Positions 436 through 61,453 of a DNA stretch of 64,000 bases are shown piece by piece. Every line of letters begins with the position of its first letter. The first letter of the stretch is position 1. The notes below the pieces were generated by a model, which ran no database searches, was not told the origin of the DNA, and saw only the letters and a program-made list of their open reading frames with translations. Source of the DNA: a bacterium (lineage in GTDB: Bacteria; Armatimonadota; UBA5829). Where the stretch lies: the NCBI GenBank assembly GCA_021371935.1, contig JAJFVF010000013.1:1-64000 (forward strand). Reading direction: 5' to 3'. Position numbers and translations under genes: made by a program.

Positions 436-1755
436 ATGTTGGTGAAGCAGGAGCAGAAAAGCCCTTGCGAGGTGGAACTGCATATCAAGGTTGATGCAGA
501 GAAAGTGGATGCAGCCGTTGACGATGCCTATGCCGAACTGGGCAAGGCGGCCAATATTCCCGGTTTTCGAAAAGGTAAGGCTCCCAGAGTCGTCTTGGAG
601 CGTGTGCTGGATCAAGAGAGAGTAAAAGACAGAGCGGCGGACAAGCTCCTCAAAAGCGCGTATATAGAGGCTCTGGAAGAGAGCAAGCTGGAACCGTATG
701 CTCTTGCCGACGTTGATATAATCAAATTCGAGCTTGGCGAGCCTCTTGAGTTCAAGGCTGTCGTGCCGCTTGAACCGAAAGTCGAATTGGGTGACTACAA
801 AGGCATCGACGTCGAGCGAAAAGTCGAGCCTGTGACCGATGAAGGCATCGAGGAGAATATTAAGGGTATTCTTGAGAGACATACTCAGTTTCCCGAAGTG
901 CATGAGCGGGAGGCGCGCGTCGGTGATGTTGTCCGTGTCGAGATGAAGGACGACAGCGATCCGAATGCCGAGATGAAGTCGAATGTGTTCGATATCGGAG
1001 ATGCTCTCCCGGAGTTCAACAATGGACTTGCGGGGATGAACCCGGATGATGAAAAAGTCATCGGCGTCACATATCCCGACGATTTTCAGGCAGAGGAACT
1101 GCGCGGCAAGACGATCCCCTGGCGGGTCAAGATGTGCGAGATTCACGAAAAGAAAGTGCCTGAACTGAGCGATGAGTGGGTCAAAGCGAATTTTGCGCCT
1201 GCGCCAAAAGAGGGTGAAGAGCCTGATTCCGAGCAGATCGACACAGTTGAAAAGTTTCGCGCCAAAATAAAATCCGCAATGCAGGAGTCTGAAGAGCACG
1301 CAGCGGACGCCGAAGTACGGAATAAGATAGTAGACAAGGTGATCGAGAACGCCAAGGCGGACTTTCCCGGCGTATTGGTAAGTGATAATGTGCAAAAGCA
1401 CATGGAAGAGCTTGCCAAGAATCTCAAAAAGCGCAATCTGACGATTGACGACTTTCTGAAATACAGGGATATCAAGTTCGAAGACTTGCAAAGCGAGTAT
1501 GAGGAGTCGGCGAAGAAAGAGCTAAAGAGCAGCATCGTTTTGGGTGAGATCGTTACAAAAGAGGATATAAAGATCGAGGACTCTGATGTCGAGGAAGCTC
1601 TTCAGGTCATGGCGGATGAAAACAGGGTTCCTGTAGAGACTATAAGGGCTTACGTAGACAAAACAAAGAGTATGCCGGACGTCCGAAATCGAATTCTGAC
1701 CAAAAAAGTTATAGACTTTCTGGTCAATGCTTCCAATATTAAAAACGTAGAATAG
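436..1755 (+). CDS. tig: Trigger factor, ribosome-bound chaperone
   Basis: At 439 residues it has the normal length for trigger factor, the chaperone that meets nascent chains at the ribosome exit tunnel. The N-terminal ribosome-binding domain carries the signature NIPGFRKGKAPR at about residues 40-51. A divergent FKBP-type peptidyl-prolyl isomerase domain follows at about 155-245, and the rest is the long helical chaperone arm. The ATG at 436 has GGAG ten bases upstream. The gene leads a tig-clpP-clpX-lon series, the common bacterial proteostasis arrangement. The stop is 18 bases before the clpP start, so the two are probably cotranscribed. Confidence 0.96.
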   Translation: MLVKQEQKSPCEVELHIKVDAEKVDAAVDDAYAELGKAANIPGFRKGKAPRVVLERVLDQERVKDRAADKLLKSAYIEALEESKLEPYALADVDIIKFELGEPLEFKAVVPLEPKVELGDYKGIDVERKVEPVTDEGIEENIKGILERHTQFPEVHEREARVGDVVRVEMKDDSDPNAEMKSNVFDIGDALPEFNNGLAGMNPDDEKVIGVTYPDDFQAEELRGKTIPWRVKMCEIHEKKVPELSDEWVKANFAPAPKEGEEPDSEQIDTVEKFRAKIKSAMQESEEHAADAEVRNKIVDKVIENAKADFPGVLVSDNVQKHMEELAKNLKKRNLTIDDFLKYRDIKFEDLQSEYEESAKKELKSSIVLGEIVTKEDIKIEDSDVEEALQVMADENRVPVETIRAYVDKTKSMPDVRNRILTKKVIDFLVNASNIKNVE

Positions 1756-1773
1756 TTGAAAGGAGTTCAACTA

Positions 1774-2358
1774 ATGGCGCTAGTACCGATGGTTGTGGAG
1801 CAGAGTGCGCGGGGCGAGCGCGCATATGATATTTATTCCAGGCTGTTGAAGGACAGGATTATTTTCATCGGCACCCCGATTGACGATGACATTGCCAACC
1901 TGGTAATGGCTCAGATGCTTTTCCTGCAGAAAGAGGACCCTGATCGGGATATAGAGCTTTATATCAACAGTCCCGGCGGCTCAGTGATTGCCGGATTGGC
2001 GATATATGATACAATGCAGATAATAAAGCCCGACGTTGCGACCATGTGCGTGGGGCACGCCATGAGTATGGCTGCGGTGCTGCTGGCCGGCGGCGCTAAG
2101 GGTAAGCGCCTTGCTCTGCCGAATTCGAGGATCATGATCCACCAGGGCAGCGCCGGTTTTCACGGCACGCCGTCCGATATAGACATTGTGGCTAAGGAAG
2201 TCCTGCGCTACAAATCACTGCTGGTCGATCTGCTGGCCAAACACTCCGGCCAGCCTCGCGATAAGGTCGAGAAAGACATTGACCGCGACTACTATATGTC
2301 ACCCGAAGAGGCTGAGGAATACGGCATAGTGGACAAAGTGCTCACGGCGTCGGAGTAG
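1774..2358 (+). CDS. clpP: ClpP serine protease subunit
   Basis: This is the proteolytic subunit that forms the tetradecameric barrel docked to ClpX. The product is 194 residues. The catalytic triad is visible as Ser98 in GHAMSMAA, His123 in MIHQGS and Asp172 in DRDYYMS. The serine motif has AMSMAA where many ClpPs have AASMGA, a mild variation. I chose the ATG at 1774 because AAAGGAG precedes it; an in-frame TTG at 1756 directly after the tig stop is less likely. clpX follows after a repeat-bearing gap of about 185 bases. Confidence 0.96.
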
Positions 2359-2392
2359 GGATTAGGAAATAGGAATCAGTTGATAGGTTCAG

Positions 2393-2433
2393 TTCGGGCT
2401 GGATATCCGATCCGGCCCGAAAGTGAACTCTGC
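2393..2433. repeat. GATATC-centred palindromic repeat, copy 1
   Basis: The near-perfect palindrome from ttcgggctgg to ccggcccgaa (2393-2421) is centred on GATATCCGATC and followed by agtgaactctgc. The same design recurs at 44823 and, as a tandem pair, at 56931-57018. The rest of the clpP-clpX gap (2359-2540) is AT-rich, low-complexity sequence of the aactcataattcaaaactc type with no gene. Confidence 0.7.
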
Positions 2434-2542
2434 GATTTTTTATCGCTGACAAGCTTTATATTTGGTGAGCGAACACACAACTCACAATCCATAATTCAAA
2501 ACTCATTTAACCCGCAACCGTTTTTTGTAGGGGGATACGAAT

Positions 2543-3808
2543 TTGGCCAGGATCGGATATGATCGCACCGGTGAGAGGTGCGCACTCTGCGGCAAGAGCC
2601 GCGATCAGGTTAAAAAGCTCCTCGTAGGTGTCTACGGTGGGATATGTATCGAATGTGTCGAGCTTTGCAACGACATCATAAGGGGCGAGGCCGGTCAGAG
2701 CGATGACTTTTCATCGATAGGCTCCGTGCCCAAACCCAAGGAAATTTATCGAATACTCAGTCAGTATGTGGTCGGTCAGGAAAAGGCGAAGAGGTCGCTG
2801 TCGGTGGCTGTGTACAACCACTTCAAGCGCATCAATTCCAACATGTCCGATGTCGAGCTTCAGAAGTCCAACATTATGCTCATCGGACCCACCGGCTCGG
2901 GCAAGACGCTGCTTGCGCAGACTCTGGCCAAGATTCTCAATGTTCCCTTTGCCATAGCGGACGCCACTTCTCTTACAGAGGCTGGTTATGTCGGCGAGGA
3001 TGTGGAGAATATTCTTCTCAAGCTCCTGCAGGCTGCGGACACCGGCGGCAGCATCCAGGACACCGTCAAAAACGCCCAGCGCGGCATTATATACATCGAC
3101 GAGATAGACAAGATCGCGCGCAAGTCCGACAACCCGTCGATCACGCGTGATGTCTCGGGTGAGGGTGTACAGCAGGCTCTGCTGAAGATCCTCGAGGGCA
3201 CTGTGGCGGCTGTTCCTCCGCAGGGCGGCAGGAAGCATCCACAGCAGGAATATGTCCATATCGACACCACCAATGTGCTCTTCATATGCGGCGGCGCTTT
3301 CGACGGTCTGGAAGATATCATTGGCCGCAGAATATCGGATAATTCGATGGGGTTCCGCGCGGAGGCCAAAAGCAAGGTCAAGAAAAATCCGGGCGAGATG
3401 TTCAAGCATGTGCTGCCCGAAGACCTCCTGAAGTTCGGGTTGATCCCTGAATTCATAGGCAGGCTTCCAGTGATGGCTACTCTGGATTCGCTCGATGAGG
3501 ATGCGCTGGTCAAGATTCTGACTCAGCCAAAGAATGCGCTTGTCAAGCAATACAAGAAGTTCTTTGAATACGACGGGGTCGACCTCGTCGTAACGGATGA
3601 CGCGCTGACTGCAATATCGAAAGAGGCGATGAAGCGCGGAATGGGAGCCAGAGCACTGCGCTCCATCATCGAAGAAGTGATGCTCAACATCATGTACGAG
3701 CTGCCTTCATGCCAGGACGTGAAGAAGTGCATTATTACCGAAGATACTATCGTCAACAAGAAGGAACCCACGCTCGTTACCCTGAGCGAGGTTAAGCAAG
3801 CGTCGTAG
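2543..3808 (+). CDS. clpX: ClpX ATPase, unfoldase of the ClpXP protease
   Basis: The 421-residue AAA+ unfoldase recognises tagged substrates and feeds them to ClpP. The N-terminal zinc-binding domain shows CALCGKS and CIECVELC. Walker A is GPTGSGKT, Walker B is [10 protein letters not shown], and [11 protein letters not shown] marks the sensor 2 region near the C terminus. The start is TTG at 2543 with GGGGG at 2530-2534; no better in-frame start gives the complete zinc finger. It is separated from lon by one base. Confidence 0.97.
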
Positions 3809-3809
3809 T

Positions 3810-6209
3810 ATGGCTTATTTGGATCATGACAGTCAGGAAGAAATTTCACATGCGCTGGATGGTCTGCAGTTGCCTCGCAAGCTGCCGAGAATACTCCCGG
3901 TGTTACCGGTCAGAGACAGCGTATACTTTCCGCATATGCTTTTTCCGCTCTTTCTGGGCAGGGAAAAGTCTATTCGCGCGCTCGATTATGCCCTCGAAAA
4001 GAACCGATATCTGCTGCTGGTAGCGCAGAAGGAGGTTTCTACGGAGGACCCGACACCCGACGATGTATACTGGGTGGGGACGGTCGTCGAGGTGATGCAG
4101 GTGCTGCGCGTGCCGGACGGTACGGTCCGTGCTACGCTCGAAGGTATCGACAGGGCGCAGATCACGAAGTTCGTTCACACCGACCCGTTCTTCAAGGCCA
4201 GGGTCCGCATACTCAGCAGCCCCGAAGTCACAGGGGCTAATGTGGAAGCGCTGATGCGCAGCGTGGTCACCGTTTTCGATCAGATCGTTCAGAATCAGGG
4301 CGGATATAACGGTCACCCGATCCCGCCTGAGCTGATGATGAATGTTGTCGGCATAGAGGAGCCGGGCAAGCTGGTCGATACGATCATCCCTCATCTGCCT
4401 ATAAAGACCGAGATCAAGCAGGATGTTCTGGAGACGGTCGACGTCATCGGGCGGCTGGAAAAGCTCAACACACTGCTGCAAAAAGAGATGGAGGTGCTGG
4501 ATATTCAGCGCAACATCCGCAGCCGTGTGGAAAAAGAGATGGGTGATATGCAGCGCGAGTATATACTCCGCGAGCAGCTCAAGGCGATCCAGCAGGAACT
4601 TGGTGACCGCGACGGGCATGCGAGTGAGGGCGATGATTATAAGACAAGGATCGCCGAAGCGAAGATGCCTGAAGAGGTCGAGTCCAAGGCTATGAAGGAA
4701 CTGGACCGGCTGGATAAGATGCCGTTTGCATCACCCGAGGGAGCCGTCATACGCAATTATCTCGATTGGCTGATTGCGCTGCCATGGGCACTGTGGTCGG
4801 AGGAATCGCTGGATATTGGTGGAGCCGAGAATGTGCTCAATGCCGATCATTTCGGTCTGGACAAGGTCAAGGAGCGAGTGCTTGAGTTCCTCGCCGTCCG
4901 CAAGTTGGCAAATGATATCAAAGGCCCGATCTTATGTTTTGTGGGACCCCCAGGTGTCGGCAAGACGAGTATAGGCAAGTCTATCGCGAAGTCGATGGGA
5001 CGCAAATTTTACAGGCTATCACTTGGCGGCGTGCGTGATGAGGCAGAGATTCGTGGACACAGGCGGACATATGTCGGTGCACTGCCCGGCAGAATAATCC
5101 AGGGTATCAGACAGGTTGGCGCGCGCAACCCGGTCTTCATGCTCGATGAGATCGACAAAATCGGCACGGACTTCAGGGGTGACCCGTCATCGGCTCTGCT
5201 GGAGGCTCTTGACCCCGAGCAGAACGATTCTTTCAGCGATCATTACCTGGAAGTGCCGTTCAATTTGCGTGATGTGATGTTCATCACGACCGCAAATGTG
5301 CTGGAGACGATCCCGCCCGCTCTTCGAGACAGGATGGAGATAATCAGGTTCTCCGGCTACATCGAGGACGAGAAGCTGGAGATTGCAAAGCGTTTTCTCC
5401 TGCCGAAGCAGATTAAAGAAAATGGCCTCACAAGCGATTTGCTCTCGATATATGAGCCTGCGCTGCGGCGGATAATACGCGAATATACTCGCGAAGCCGG
5501 AGTGCGCGGCTTGGAACGCAAGATCGGCACTATCTGTCGCAAAGTGGCCAAAGAAGTGGCGACGGGCAAGACTACCAAGACCACCGTCCGCGAAAAGGAT
5601 ATCAAGACCTATCTGGGCACGCAGAAGTATCACTTCGGCAGAGCGGAAGAAAAGGATGAAATCGCTGCGGTGACCGGCCTGGTATATACTGAGTTTGGCG
5701 GGGATGTCATCTCCATCGAGACCGTGTTGATGAAGTCCGAAAAGGGCAATCTCATCCTGACCGGTCAGTTGGGTGATGTGATGAAAGAGTCTGCTCAAGC
5801 TGCTCTGACATACGTTCGATCACGTGCAAGGACTCTGGGTATTGATGAGGAATTCAGCTCTCGCACTGATATTCACATCCATGTCCCGGAGGGAGCCGTG
5901 CCCAAAGACGGTCCGTCCGCAGGTGTCACTATCGCCACTGCGATTGCATCGGCTCTCACAAAGCGGCCTGTGCGCAGGGATGTTGCAATGACCGGTGAGA
6001 TCACTCTGCGTGGTCGTGTTTTGCCCATAGGCGGGGTCAAGGAGAAGGTGCTTGCGGCTCATAGAGCGGGCATAAGGACGGTTATCCTGCCCAGGGAAAA
6101 CGAAAATGACATCGAAGAGATACCATCGAATGTTCGAGACGAGATGACTTTCCATCTGGTCGATCATGCCGATGAGGTGTTGGATTTGGCTCTTCTTCAG
6201 AGCAAATAG
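3810..6209 (+). CDS. lon: Lon ATP-dependent protease
   Basis: The 799-residue protein has the full LonA layout: an N-terminal substrate-binding domain beginning around [13 protein letters not shown], a coiled-coil segment around residues 225-260, an AAA+ domain with Walker A GPPGVGKT near residue 380 and Walker [12 protein letters not shown], and a C-terminal Ser-Lys protease domain with PKDGPSAGV (Ser near 702) and [10 protein letters not shown] (Lys near 745). It degrades misfolded and regulatory cytoplasmic proteins. The ATG lies one base after the clpX stop, so translation is probably coupled. A strong terminator follows. Confidence 0.97.
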
Positions 6210-6234
6210 ACAAAAGAACCTACATGTAAAAGTA

Positions 6235-6272
6235 ATGCCCCGCCCACAATATGAGCGGGGCATCGTTTTTTA
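6235..6272 (+). terminator. Terminator after lon
   Basis: The stem atgccccgc (6235-6243) pairs exactly with gcggggcat (6255-6263), followed by a run of six T residues. It closes the tig-clp-lon transcript. The converging gene at 6289 on the minus strand begins its stop codon just beyond. Confidence 0.9.
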
Positions 6273-6288
6273 GTCTATCCATACCTGA

Positions 6289-7032
6289 TTAAGGGCAGGT
6301 AGGACAAGGCGTAGGACATGTCGGACAAGTTGCCGGCGGACATGTCGTAGGACATGTCGGACATGTTGCCGGTGGACAGCATGGTCCTGCACCAGTGGAC
6401 GACGGGCATACCGGACATACTTCACCATATCTCGACAGCCAGTTTTGTAAAGCGACAATTTCCTTGGATGTCGAGTTCACAACAATCCTTGCCTGATCAC
6501 GAAGTCCCGGCATAGTCGCCTTGGAGAGAGCAAGCTGTGCCGCCGCTCTGTTTTGCTCCAGCAGTCCGATCATTGTCTTGACGTATGGAACGTTATAATC
6601 AGCACCGCAGCACTGCTTCAGACTGTCCATGACACACTGTATCCTGTTATAGTCCGCGGTCAGGGTGCACATTCCCTGTTTTTGTGCCCAGTAAGCCAGT
6701 TTCTGGCTTTGCTTAGTCTGTTCATAACGTATCTTGCCCGACAAGTCTCTGATAGCCTTGTTTGTGGACAACTGTATTCCTTGAGTGGCAAGCGCAGCGA
6801 TGTCACTGTGCTGTTGATACATCAGGCGCATAAAGGCCTGGTCGAAGTCACAGCCGCACAAATCCGCAAGTTCTGGACAAGGTCCTGCACCTATACTCGC
6901 AGGCTCGGCAGGACATGTCAGACATGGTGCTGGACATGTCGGGCACGCCGGCTCGCATCCACATTCCGCAAACAGCGTAGTTGGAACGGCTGCAAACATC
7001 AACGCCAGCAACGTGATGCCTAGGTATCTCAT
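6289..7032 (-). CDS. Secreted Cys-Pro-rich protein with two DUF305-like helical units (paralogue 1)
   Basis: The 247-residue product starts with a signal peptide (MRYLGITLLALMFAAVPTTLFA), so it is exported. A short Cys-Pro cluster (CPTCPAPCLTCPAEP) follows. The middle has two helical units: the first around FMRLMYQQHSDIAALATQG, the second around TMIGLLEQNRAAAQLAL. Each ends in an Ala/Glu helix and a YW or NWL element, like the DUF305 ferritin-like fold. Only one histidine of the family's HH pair remains in unit one and none in unit two. The C terminus is a CPTCP/CPPAT repeat tail. The cysteine density suggests metal binding or disulfide cross-linking; function is unknown. It is a tandem paralogue of the next gene. 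Confidence 0.7.
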   Translation of the reverse strand: MRYLGITLLALMFAAVPTTLFAECGCEPACPTCPAPCLTCPAEPASIGAGPCPELADLCGCDFDQAFMRLMYQQHSDIAALATQGIQLSTNKAIRDLSGKIRYEQTKQSQKLAYWAQKQGMCTLTADYNRIQCVMDSLKQCCGADYNVPYVKTMIGLLEQNRAAAQLALSKATMPGLRDQARIVVNSTSKEIVALQNWLSRYGEVCPVCPSSTGAGPCCPPATCPTCPTTCPPATCPTCPTPCPTCP

Positions 7033-7147
7033 TTTTCACTGCCTCCTGTTGTTTTCTATATGCCCCGGTATCTTTGTTCCCTCTCATGCCAATCAACAAA
7101 CGGTCTGATAATATGCAATTGAAACATAGATTGTTTACCGAGTATGC

Positions 7148-7179
7148 ATAACGCCCCGGAGATTTTCCGGGGCGTTATA
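7148..7179 (-). terminator. Hairpin downstream of the second Cys-Pro gene
   Basis: The stem taacgccccgga pairs with tccggggcgtta around a short loop. It lies 24 bases beyond the stop of the minus-strand gene ending at 7203. No long T run follows on the minus strand, so it may act as a transcript-end or RNA-stability hairpin. Confidence 0.55.
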
Positions 7180-7202
7180 AAATGTCAAAATCCCACAGGC
7201 CA

Positions 7203-7928
7203 TTATGGGCATGGCTTGGGACATGGAGTCGGACAAGGCGTAGGACACGGTGTCGGACATGGAGTTGGGCAGGTTGTCGAAGGACAAACCTTGTCGCCTA
7301 TCCATTTGACGAGCGTGCTAATTTCTTTTTGAGTAGCAGCAAGTGAGCATGACGCCGCATCCCTGAGTTCCTTTGTCGGTGACTGCGCCACAGCCATTTG
7401 GTCCGCGTCACGCTGCTGTGAGAGCAGCATCGAGAGTGTTCTTGCGTATTCAGCATTGAAATTACAGTCATCGCACTTGGGCAGAGTATTCACAATCGCC
7501 TGCACCTTTGAATAGTCGACCGGCAGCGGGCAGATATTGCATGTTCTTGCCCAAGCAGCCAGTTTTTCGTTCATCACGGTCTGCTCTTTACGAATAGTCG
7601 TGGACAAGTCCTTCAGACACCTGTCGGTCGTCTGTTCAATGCCTTGAGTTGTGAATGCGCTGATCGTCGTATGCAGTTGATACATAGTCTGCATGTAGGT
7701 CTTGTCGAAGTCCGCACCGCATAGTCCCTGCAGATTTGCTGCCGGCCCGGAGCCCAGCGCAGAAGCAACTGCCTTTGTTGCCGCTGGGCATCCCGAAATA
7801 CATGACGGACAAGTCGGGCATTCCGGTTTGCACGGCTGCGTCGTCGACGGACAACATGTTTGTGCGGACAGTGCCGCAGCTGCGAAAACGATGGCGAGAG
7901 CGAACATAATTATGTACACGTGTCGCAT
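7203..7928 (-). CDS. Secreted Cys-Pro-rich protein with two DUF305-like helical units (paralogue 2)
   Basis: The 241-residue product has the same plan as the gene at 6289: a signal peptide ending near LSAQ, an N-terminal Cys-Pro cluster (CKPECPTCPSC), two helical units (FDKTYMQTMYQLHTTISAFTTQG and ARTLSMLLSQQRDADQMA) and a C-terminal tail. Here the tail is a regular four-residue repeat, CPTP, used four or more times. The repeat is visible in DNA as iterated ggacatggcgt-like units. One histidine of the DUF305 HH motif is kept in unit one. The two genes clearly arose by duplication and then diverged, most in the repeat tail. No known function. Confidence 0.7.
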   Translation of the reverse strand: MRHVYIIMFALAIVFAAAALSAQTCCPSTTQPCKPECPTCPSCISGCPAATKAVASALGSGPAANLQGLCGADFDKTYMQTMYQLHTTISAFTTQGIEQTTDRCLKDLSTTIRKEQTVMNEKLAAWARTCNICPLPVDYSKVQAIVNTLPKCDDCNFNAEYARTLSMLLSQQRDADQMAVAQSPTKELRDAASCSLAATQKEISTLVKWIGDKVCPSTTCPTPCPTPCPTPCPTPCPKPCP

Positions 7929-8143: not shown

Positions 8144-8173
8144 TTGACAGCCCACAGGCTTGATCCCTATAAT
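8144..8173 (+). promoter_or_regulatory. Sigma-70-type promoter for the 8206 operon
   Basis: TTGACA (8144-8149) and TATAAT (8168-8173) are separated by 18 bases. The predicted start is near 8180, giving a leader of about 26 bases before the ATG at 8206. Confidence 0.75.
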
Positions 8174-8205: not shown

Positions 8206-8445
8206 ATGGGTCCGGTAAAGAATCAATCGCTCTCGGAGCGTCGGAAGAGAAGGAAGGCGATTATTGCATGGACACTTGCCGTGGCGCTGTGGGCAGTCTT
8301 CGCGGTCAAAGAGAGCGAAACCAAACCAAAACTGCCAAAAGCGGATGCATCTGTTATGAGCATCGTATTGAAGCATCTGGATCACGAGTCGCATAATCCA
8401 CTTTTCGGCAATACCAATATCAGTGTGAGCAAAGATGATAAATAA
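8206..8445 (+). CDS. Small single-pass membrane protein upstream of an RseB-like gene
   Basis: The 79-residue protein has a very basic cytoplasmic N terminus (SERRKRRK), one membrane segment at about residues 19-34 and a short polar extracytoplasmic tail. The ATG at 8206 follows AGGAGG seven bases upstream, so the start is secure. Its last 11 bases overlap the start of the RseB-like gene, implying translational coupling. In size and topology it could play the part of a minimal membrane partner for that protein, by analogy with RseA-RseB. It has no recognisable sigma-binding domain, so that role is only a guess. Confidence 0.6.
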   Translation: MGPVKNQSLSERRKRRKAIIAWTLAVALWAVFAVKESETKPKLPKADASVMSIVLKHLDHESHNPLFGNTNISVSKDDK

Positions 8446-60235: not shown

Positions 60236-60950
60236 CGACAATGGTGATTCACACATTTGTATAAGTGTAATTGTTCCTGTATACAACGAGCAGACCAGGG
60301 TTACCGAATCGCTGGGCGAGATAAAATCATATCTGAACAGCAAGGATGAGTCATACGAGATTATTCTGGTCGATGACGGCAGCACTGACGGCACGCTCGA
60401 GATAGCGAGAAAGATAGGCAACGGTTCGACTCGGATTGTCAGCTATGAGCATAATATGGGCAAGGGCTATGCCGTTCGACAGGGCGTGTATGCTGCGCGC
60501 GGTGAGTATATAGCTTTCACTGATGTCGATCTGTCGGCTCCAATAGATCAGCTGTCGAAACTGTTTAGTGCGATTGAGGACAGCTATGACGTCGCGATAG
60601 GCTCGCGCGCAGTGAAGGGCGCGGAAATTCCAGTTCACCAACCTCTGTATCGTGAACTCGGGGGCAAAGCGCTCAACCTGGCTATACAAATGCTTGCAGT
60701 TCCAGGAATTAAAGACACTCAGTGTGGGTTCAAGCTGTTCAAAGGCGATGCCGCCCGTAAAATCTTCTCAAAATGCTTCATAAACGGCTGGGGGTTCGAT
60801 GTCGAGGTGCTCTTTCTCGCGCGGAAACTGGGCTATAAAACAGCCGAGATTCCTGTGAAATGGTCTCATATGGCAGGCTCCAAGCTCCATCCGTTCAGGG
60901 GTGCTCTCAGAGTGATTGCGGATGTAATTCGCATGCGCTTGAGAGGCTGA
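60228..60950 (+). CDS. GT2 glycosyltransferase, DPM1/ALG5-like
   Basis: The 240-residue protein has a GT-A fold: SVIVPVYNEQTRV, ILVDDGSTDGT, the metal-binding FTDVDLSAP and DTQCGFKLFKGDAARKIF. The last is typical of enzymes that transfer glucose or mannose to polyprenyl phosphate. There are no membrane helices. I chose TTG at 60228, eight bases inside ftsY, with GGAGG upstream, indicating coupling to ftsY. Confidence 0.88.
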   Translation: MNSDNGDSHICISVIVPVYNEQTRVTESLGEIKSYLNSKDESYEIILVDDGSTDGTLEIARKIGNGSTRIVSYEHNMGKGYAVRQGVYAARGEYIAFTDVDLSAPIDQLSKLFSAIEDSYDVAIGSRAVKGAEIPVHQPLYRELGGKALNLAIQMLAVPGIKDTQCGFKLFKGDAARKIFSKCFINGWGFDVEVLFLARKLGYKTAEIPVKWSHMAGSKLHPFRGALRVIADVIRMRLRG

Positions 60951-60968
60951 TTTTTCCTCATATCAGGG

Positions 60969-60997
60969 TTGACGTTTTCCTTGCAGTATGTTATAAG
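60969..60997 (+). promoter_or_regulatory. Promoter of the thioesterase/Fe-S operon
   Basis: TTGACG (60969-60974) and TATAAG (60992-60997) with a 17-base spacer, 30 bases before the first start. Confidence 0.7.
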
Positions 60998-61027
60998 TGT
61001 AATATACATATAGGTGGAGAATACAAT

Positions 61028-61453
61028 TTGGCGAGTTCCTGTAAAGTCGTGCTGACATGCACAAGTCACCGTCACTGTTTCGCCTGTGGTCCTGAGAACG
61101 AAGGCGGGCTGGGGCTTGTGTTCACAAAATACGATGATGGCCATGTGGGCGCTCAGTGTGTAATCAATGAGCGCTATCAGGGCTATCCGGGCATAGTGCA
61201 GGGCGGAATAGTGGCGACCATTCTGGACTGCGCGATGACCAACTGCCTGTTTGCTCATGGCGTCGAGGCAATGACGGTGCGCCTGAACGTGCAGTTTCAT
61301 GAGAACGTGTTTATAAATGAGAGCCTGACAGTCGAGGCCGCACTTATAAGTACGCGCGGTCGTGTCTATGAACTCGATGCGAGCATAACTCAGCGCGCAA
61401 AGGTGAGAGCCTCTGCGTCCGGGCGGTTCATGAGGTCACGCAGTGGCGTATAG
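61028..61453 (+). CDS. PaaI-like hotdog thioesterase
   Basis: The 141-residue hotdog protein has HCFACGPENEGGLGLVF, the active-site turn YPGIVQGGIVATILDCAMTN and the strand MTVRLNVQFHENV. Such enzymes hydrolyse acyl-CoA thioesters. I chose TTG at 61028 with GGAG nine bases upstream. It is the first gene of the Fe-S operon and overlaps the IscU-like gene by 11 bases. Why a thioesterase leads this operon is unclear. Confidence 0.82.
   Translation: MASSCKVVLTCTSHRHCFACGPENEGGLGLVFTKYDDGHVGAQCVINERYQGYPGIVQGGIVATILDCAMTNCLFAHGVEAMTVRLNVQFHENVFINESLTVEAALISTRGRVYELDASITQRAKVRASASGRFMRSRSGV

Follow-up and report, generated by a model that had tools for sequence, protein, structure and literature searches.

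The DUF305 protein best studied in the literature consulted is CopM of Synechocystis, which carries two DUF305 units (PDB 5ffa, 5ffd, 5fej). As described in excerpts of PMC4335983, CopM is a periplasmic copper protein with a conserved HH motif, 8 His, 23 Met and no Cys. CopM peptides and copper are also treated in excerpts of PMC11836926; PMC4520260, which in its excerpted text concerns DUF3050, was set aside as a DUF305 source. Here we describe two genes of an Armatimonadota bacterium (UBA5829) whose products resemble CopM in their duplicated helical units, their predicted fold and probably their export, but differ from it in being Cys-rich with a single His each, where CopM has the HH motif, many His and Met and no Cys.

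The two genes, a and b, lie in tandem in the window (the whole stretch of 64,000 nucleotides that was analysed) and are 42-43% identical. Their parts are as follows:

6289..7032, minus strand: gene a, an ORF of 247 aa for a putatively exported, CP-rich protein of DUF305 fold
6967..7032, minus strand: probable signal peptide of gene a, residues 1-22 (by eye: basic start, hydrophobic stretch, A at 22)
6892..6966, minus strand: N-terminal Cys-Pro tract of gene a, residues 23-47 (Cys 24, 26, 30, 33, 37, 40)
6880..6891, minus strand: GAGP motif of gene a, residues 48-51 (from the alignment of relatives)
6424..6879, minus strand: four-helix core of gene a, residues 52-203 (AlphaFold and structural match to CopM)
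6289..6423, minus strand: C-terminal Cys-Pro tail of gene a, residues 204-247, and stop (11 Cys; low pLDDT)
7203..7928, minus strand: gene b, an ORF of 241 aa for a second putatively exported, CP-rich protein of DUF305 fold
7863..7928, minus strand: probable signal peptide of gene b, residues 1-22 (by eye)
7755..7862, minus strand: N-terminal Cys-rich tract of gene b, residues 23-58 (Cys 25, 26, 33, 37, 40, 43, 47)
7743..7754, minus strand: GSGP of gene b, residues 59-62, the counterpart of GAGP (from the sequence)
7290..7742, minus strand: four-helix core of gene b, residues 63-213 (AlphaFold and structural match to CopM)
7203..7289, minus strand: C-terminal CPTP-repeat tail of gene b, residues 214-241, and stop (7 Cys)

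Both proteins passed the Pfam profiles DUF305 (PF03713; 57.5 bits for gene a and, barely, 28.5 for gene b) and DUF4142 (PF13628; 35.3 and 32.8 bits), each with a cut-off of 27, yet the conserved HH of DUF305 is degenerate in them: it reads QQH in gene a and QLH in gene b in the first unit and LL in both in the second. One of the four HH-motif His is thereby kept in each protein, His75 in gene a and His86 in gene b. The mature parts contain 24 Cys, 1 His and 6 Met (gene a) and 21 Cys, an odd number, 1 His and 5 Met (gene b), unlike the Met/His-rich, Cys-free composition of CopM, and the NCBIfam CopM model (NF049983) gave 31.8 and 12.3 bits, below its cut-off of 90. From an alignment of 20 relatives, AlphaFold predicted four helices packed as a bundle in either protein, with pLDDT exceeding 90 over most of the core and below 50 in most of both arms (residues 13-42 in gene a, whose core helices span 60-88, 92-118, 144-171 and 175-202). 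The best solved structural matches were CopM itself (Z 19.0 for gene a and 19.1 for gene b; rmsd 1.7 and 1.8 over 137 residues), with other solved DUF305 proteins at Z 18.0 and 17.9 (2qf9) and 17.9 and 17.5 (3bt5), and further ferritin-like structures at about Z 16-18. Genes a and b are a divergent lineage with the CopM fold, neither CopM nor a canonical DUF305 protein. Pfam and NCBIfam scans to E 10 gave no metallothionein match, short Cys-rich profiles being easily missed in this way, and an anti-phage role was dropped as PADLOC gave no match.

The first-pass annotation had described tandem duplicates that are exported and have Cys-Pro tracts on either side of degenerate DUF305 units, the units having lost most of their His and one tail being irregular, the other a regular CPTP repeat. 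This description stood throughout: both ORFs lie on the minus strand as given above, their starts look like signal peptides by eye, and the AlphaFold model of the middle region, which it had proposed as a check, is a confident four-helix bundle. Its view that the architecture fits no known family had to be given up, the core being a clear DUF305 homologue.

The Cys-Pro tracts far exceed what composition predicts. In 20,000 shuffles of the mature part of gene a, CP dipeptides averaged 2.56 (sd 1.44) and never exceeded 9, whereas the protein itself has 14; shuffling the residues of the mature part of gene b gave 2.22 on average (sd 1.34, at most 9), where 12 are observed. Their Cys fractions, 0.097 and 0.087, are the top two among the 55 ORFs in the window that reach 100 aa (median 0.0138); the third in this ranking is a candidate ORF at 60860-61453 (0.061). 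The irregular tail of gene a reads CPTCPTTCPPATCPTCPTPCPTCP, and CxxC spacings (CPTC, CPVC), which are also typical of metal ligands, occur several times in this protein. Synonymous codons for Cys, Pro and Thr are mixed in both tails, which argues that they are no fresh DNA repeat, and recent repeat expansion was rejected as their origin. Three close CP codon pairs, sought in the DNA irrespective of frame, were matched at 10 places in the genome, 7 of them within genes a and b; as the reversed control pattern gave 8, only this clustering is of note.

We then considered the relatives, in the 15 genomes of the host family (f1, including the window's own, G000) and in a phylum set of 291. With the alignment as query, the protein was present in 7 of the 15 family genomes and, at E 1e-6, in 29 of the 291, the matches outside the family being mostly weak. 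The CP form occurs in six family genomes: G000, G001, G003 and G004, which belong to one genus, G005 and G007. Relatives from three genera thus carry CP tracts, that of G005 being N-terminal only, and gene a has orthologues in G001, G003, G004 and G007. A search of DUF305 proteins for CP tails had been suggested in the first-pass annotation, which would have been contradicted by a missing DUF305 match together with relatives devoid of CP tails; the outcome was the opposite on both counts. As canonical comparison we used 13 DUF305 relatives from the phylum matches outside the family: 12 have HH twice, all have 0-2 Cys, and CP arms and GAGP are absent from all 13. Within the searches done, the CP form is therefore confined to six genomes of one family. 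G000 additionally holds a clade c, with a front CP tract only, and a clade d, with no CP. A scan of the whole collection with gene a returned two records, one labelled Armatimonadetes UBA5829; the proteins of these two records read identically to the G003 and G001 proteins. In a tree of 23 family rows and 4 of the 13 canonical sequences, 19 family rows grouped at 100/99 and the deep forks were weak; our reading of it by eye is that CP may have been gained once and lost in G002a.

Other features of these relatives were also recorded. GAGP precedes the core in nearly all of them, in several copies in G002a, G002e and G007e (L076, L065, L174). Four DUF305 relatives (L077:4836-5699, L076:3329-4729, L174:8313-9416 and L175:7850-8761) carry at the N terminus some 30 residues resembling 'IAVDxxxIYVxxGxxxxKxxK', a unit that recurs in some of them, and the G002b relative (L066:5668-6387) has a Gly-Tyr-rich C-terminal tail instead of a CP tail.

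The alignments of the family (A1, A2) cover 20 of its 23 rows, without G002e, G005e and G007e and with G003b cut before a run of N. G48, G50 and P51 of the gene a GAGP are conserved in at least 90% of the 20 rows. Core Cys sit at the helix caps: in gene a, 59/61 precede helix A or stand where it starts and 141/142 precede helix C; in gene b, 70 precedes helix A and 152/155 precede helix C. All 16 rows with at least five CP have a Cys before helix A, and 14 of them before both helices A and C; among the 7 rows with fewer than five CP, cap A has a Cys in 2, cap C in 1, and both in none. Between G000 and G004, 21 of 23 Cys columns are kept in gene a and 17 of 18 in gene b, the arms differing in length. 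In a ferritin-like topology, which we take to apply here, the N-terminal arm and cap A would lie at one pole and the C-terminal arm and cap C at the other, therefore a single molecule could form links at either end.

The flank on the lon side is made up as follows:

436..6209, plus strand: tig, clpP, clpX and lon (Pfam), the end of lon abutting the gene
6234..6264, minus strand: terminator-like hairpin that follows gene a in the gap before the convergent lon (14-pair stem; a pattern match only)

Beyond gene b, plus-strand genes start at 8206 and 8435; a perfect (12/12) match to a sigma-70-type promoter lies at 8144-8173, upstream of ORF 8206. This other flank encodes a GH94 enzyme, a BON protein and a weak MucB/RseB-like match that stays under its cut-off (21.5 against 22.3 bits), and it is conserved in G004 and G001. 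Genes a and b of G004 are separated by three ORFs, of which one has FecR and PD40 domains (L062:10839-15331). The gene adjoins lon in G000, G003, G004, G007 and G017 and lies 3.7 kb from it in G005. Beside the lon copy that matches best, no such gene occurs in eight genomes (G002, G010, G011, G015, G016, G018, G019, G020), and on the G001 contig the gene and lon are not neighbours; the conserved linkage is therefore suggestive at most as a functional clue. The G017 gene, from another family, encodes a canonical DUF305 protein in the same tig-clpP-clpX-lon order, and this protein aligns with those of genes a and b over the whole core. It differs from them in having HH in both units, no Cys, many Met and a DUF305 score of 121.9 bits; moreover its gene is on the strand of lon, and genes a and b are on the other strand, pointing towards it.

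If the Cys residues formed disulfides, an oxidising enzyme would be expected in the same genome. Indeed, VKOR, which according to the excerpted text of PMC12453122 can drive disulfide formation in the envelope, was found in G000; the match scores 94.8 bits and has a CxxC as well as a pair of Cys upstream. It scored above cut-off in all six CP genomes and in none of the nine other family genomes (Fisher p 0.0002, uncorrected for ancestry). The contrast rests on two within-genus comparisons, and shared descent could explain much of it. In genus g1, G002 has no VKOR, and two of its DUF305 relatives contain 2 Cys each; the longer third one, G002e, has 4 Cys and no CP; in genus g4, the CP protein and VKOR are both in G007 and neither is in G011. 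VKOR also occurs in G015, G016, G017 and G019, all without the CP protein, and is thus insufficient for its presence. A general loss of Cys from exported proteins in G002 was rejected as a trivial cause: their Cys fraction in a 302-kb sample of G000 (41 exported-like ORFs, the two window genes excluded) was no different from that in a 215-kb sample of G002 (26 ORFs; p 0.68), therefore the loss in G002 is not genome-wide. In the G000 sample, 26 exported-like proteins with Cys had odd counts and 9 even, with rough ORF starts; this is the reverse of what general disulfide pairing predicts and does not support general oxidation. COX1 was not found in five of the six CP genomes, and the habitat may therefore be reducing. 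The window's genome also encodes an exported-looking thioredoxin (L203:8384-9518), lying next to, or overlapping with, an open frame in which Cys pairs are numerous.

The first-pass annotation had proposed a metal-sequestering or a disulfide-linked role and made no choice; both are reasonable, and we favour disulfides over metal because of the co-occurrence with VKOR and the Cys at the helix caps. We tentatively suggest that a CopM-type core has been reused as a disulfide cross-linker of the cell envelope or extracellular matrix, a reading that could well be right though we stop short of expecting it. An ancestral DUF305 protein would have lost most of its copper ligands, the lineage would have acquired Cys where both repeat helices begin, and flexible Cys-Pro arms would have grown at both ends. 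The exported proteins could then use the ferritin-like four-helix core as a rigid rod that joins envelope or matrix partners through disulfides at each end, with VKOR supplying the oxidising power. What the computation shows is the homology, the predicted fold, the loss of copper ligands, the gain of Cys and CP and the co-occurrence with VKOR; export, the geometry of the poles, disulfide formation and cross-linking are inferred. The fuller version, in which the CopM fold became an envelope staple fastened by disulfides at its two ends and its Cys came and went together with VKOR, is possible but doubtful. Cys-rich proteins joined by disulfides are found in the Chlamydia envelope. Genes a and b may share this way of working; their own core is a DUF305 bundle, and the comparison, for which no homology was found, is one of mode. 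Several observations speak against disulfides: the odd Cys number of gene b, the CxxC spacings of gene a, the parity of exported Cys, the absence of COX1, the VKOR genomes without a CP protein, and clade c, which has no C-terminal arm. In addition, no envelope anchor was found in proteins a and b.

Some of these same points would fit thiolate metal binding, in which the arms and cap Cys would, outside the cytoplasm, bind soft metals such as Cu(I), Zn or Cd and the ancestral copper role would persist with Cys in place of His and Met. Homology to the copper-binding CopM (PMC4335983, in excerpt) and the CxxC spacings agree with this, as do the possibly reducing conditions suggested by the lack of COX1 and the odd Cys counts of the exported sample. 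However, no copper or metal gene is present among the Pfam-annotated neighbours, the CP proteins co-occur with VKOR, and the Cu(I) binders of the oxidising periplasm described in the excerpts of PMC4335983 share Met and His and no Cys; we consider metal binding unlikely. Alternatively, the Cys residues may cycle between thiol and disulfide as a redox buffer or oxidant sink that protects the envelope without fixed partners. The many Cys, their varying number among orthologues and the exported thioredoxin-like protein are in line with such a role, but Cys positions are closely kept in orthologues and the caps match in both repeats, which makes it improbable. Least probable of all is low-complexity drift of disordered arms of little function kept by gene duplication: the arms are predicted to be disordered, vary in length and have counterparts in other low-complexity ends such as the Gly-Tyr tail of G002b, but the mixed synonymous codons, the kept Cys columns and the occurrence of CP tracts in three genera (N-terminal only in G005) stand against it.

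Among the matches listed, literature searches on VKOR with cysteine-rich, on Armatimonadota with cysteine and on Cys-/Pro-rich envelope proteins gave nothing on this protein, and those on CPxCP or metallothionein gave no CPxCP. DUF305 with cysteine-rich gave only a paper which, going by its listing, concerns ice-binding proteins.

By its name, DUF305 remains a domain of unknown function. A lineage such as that of genes a and b, with the fold kept, most HH His dropped and Cys gained at both helix caps and in both arms, would show a non-copper use of this fold. The match with VKOR provides a prediction that can be tested in genomes already sequenced. If the disulfide reading is true, related genomes with and without VKOR would constitute a natural experiment in the conversion of a metal protein into a structural cross-linker.
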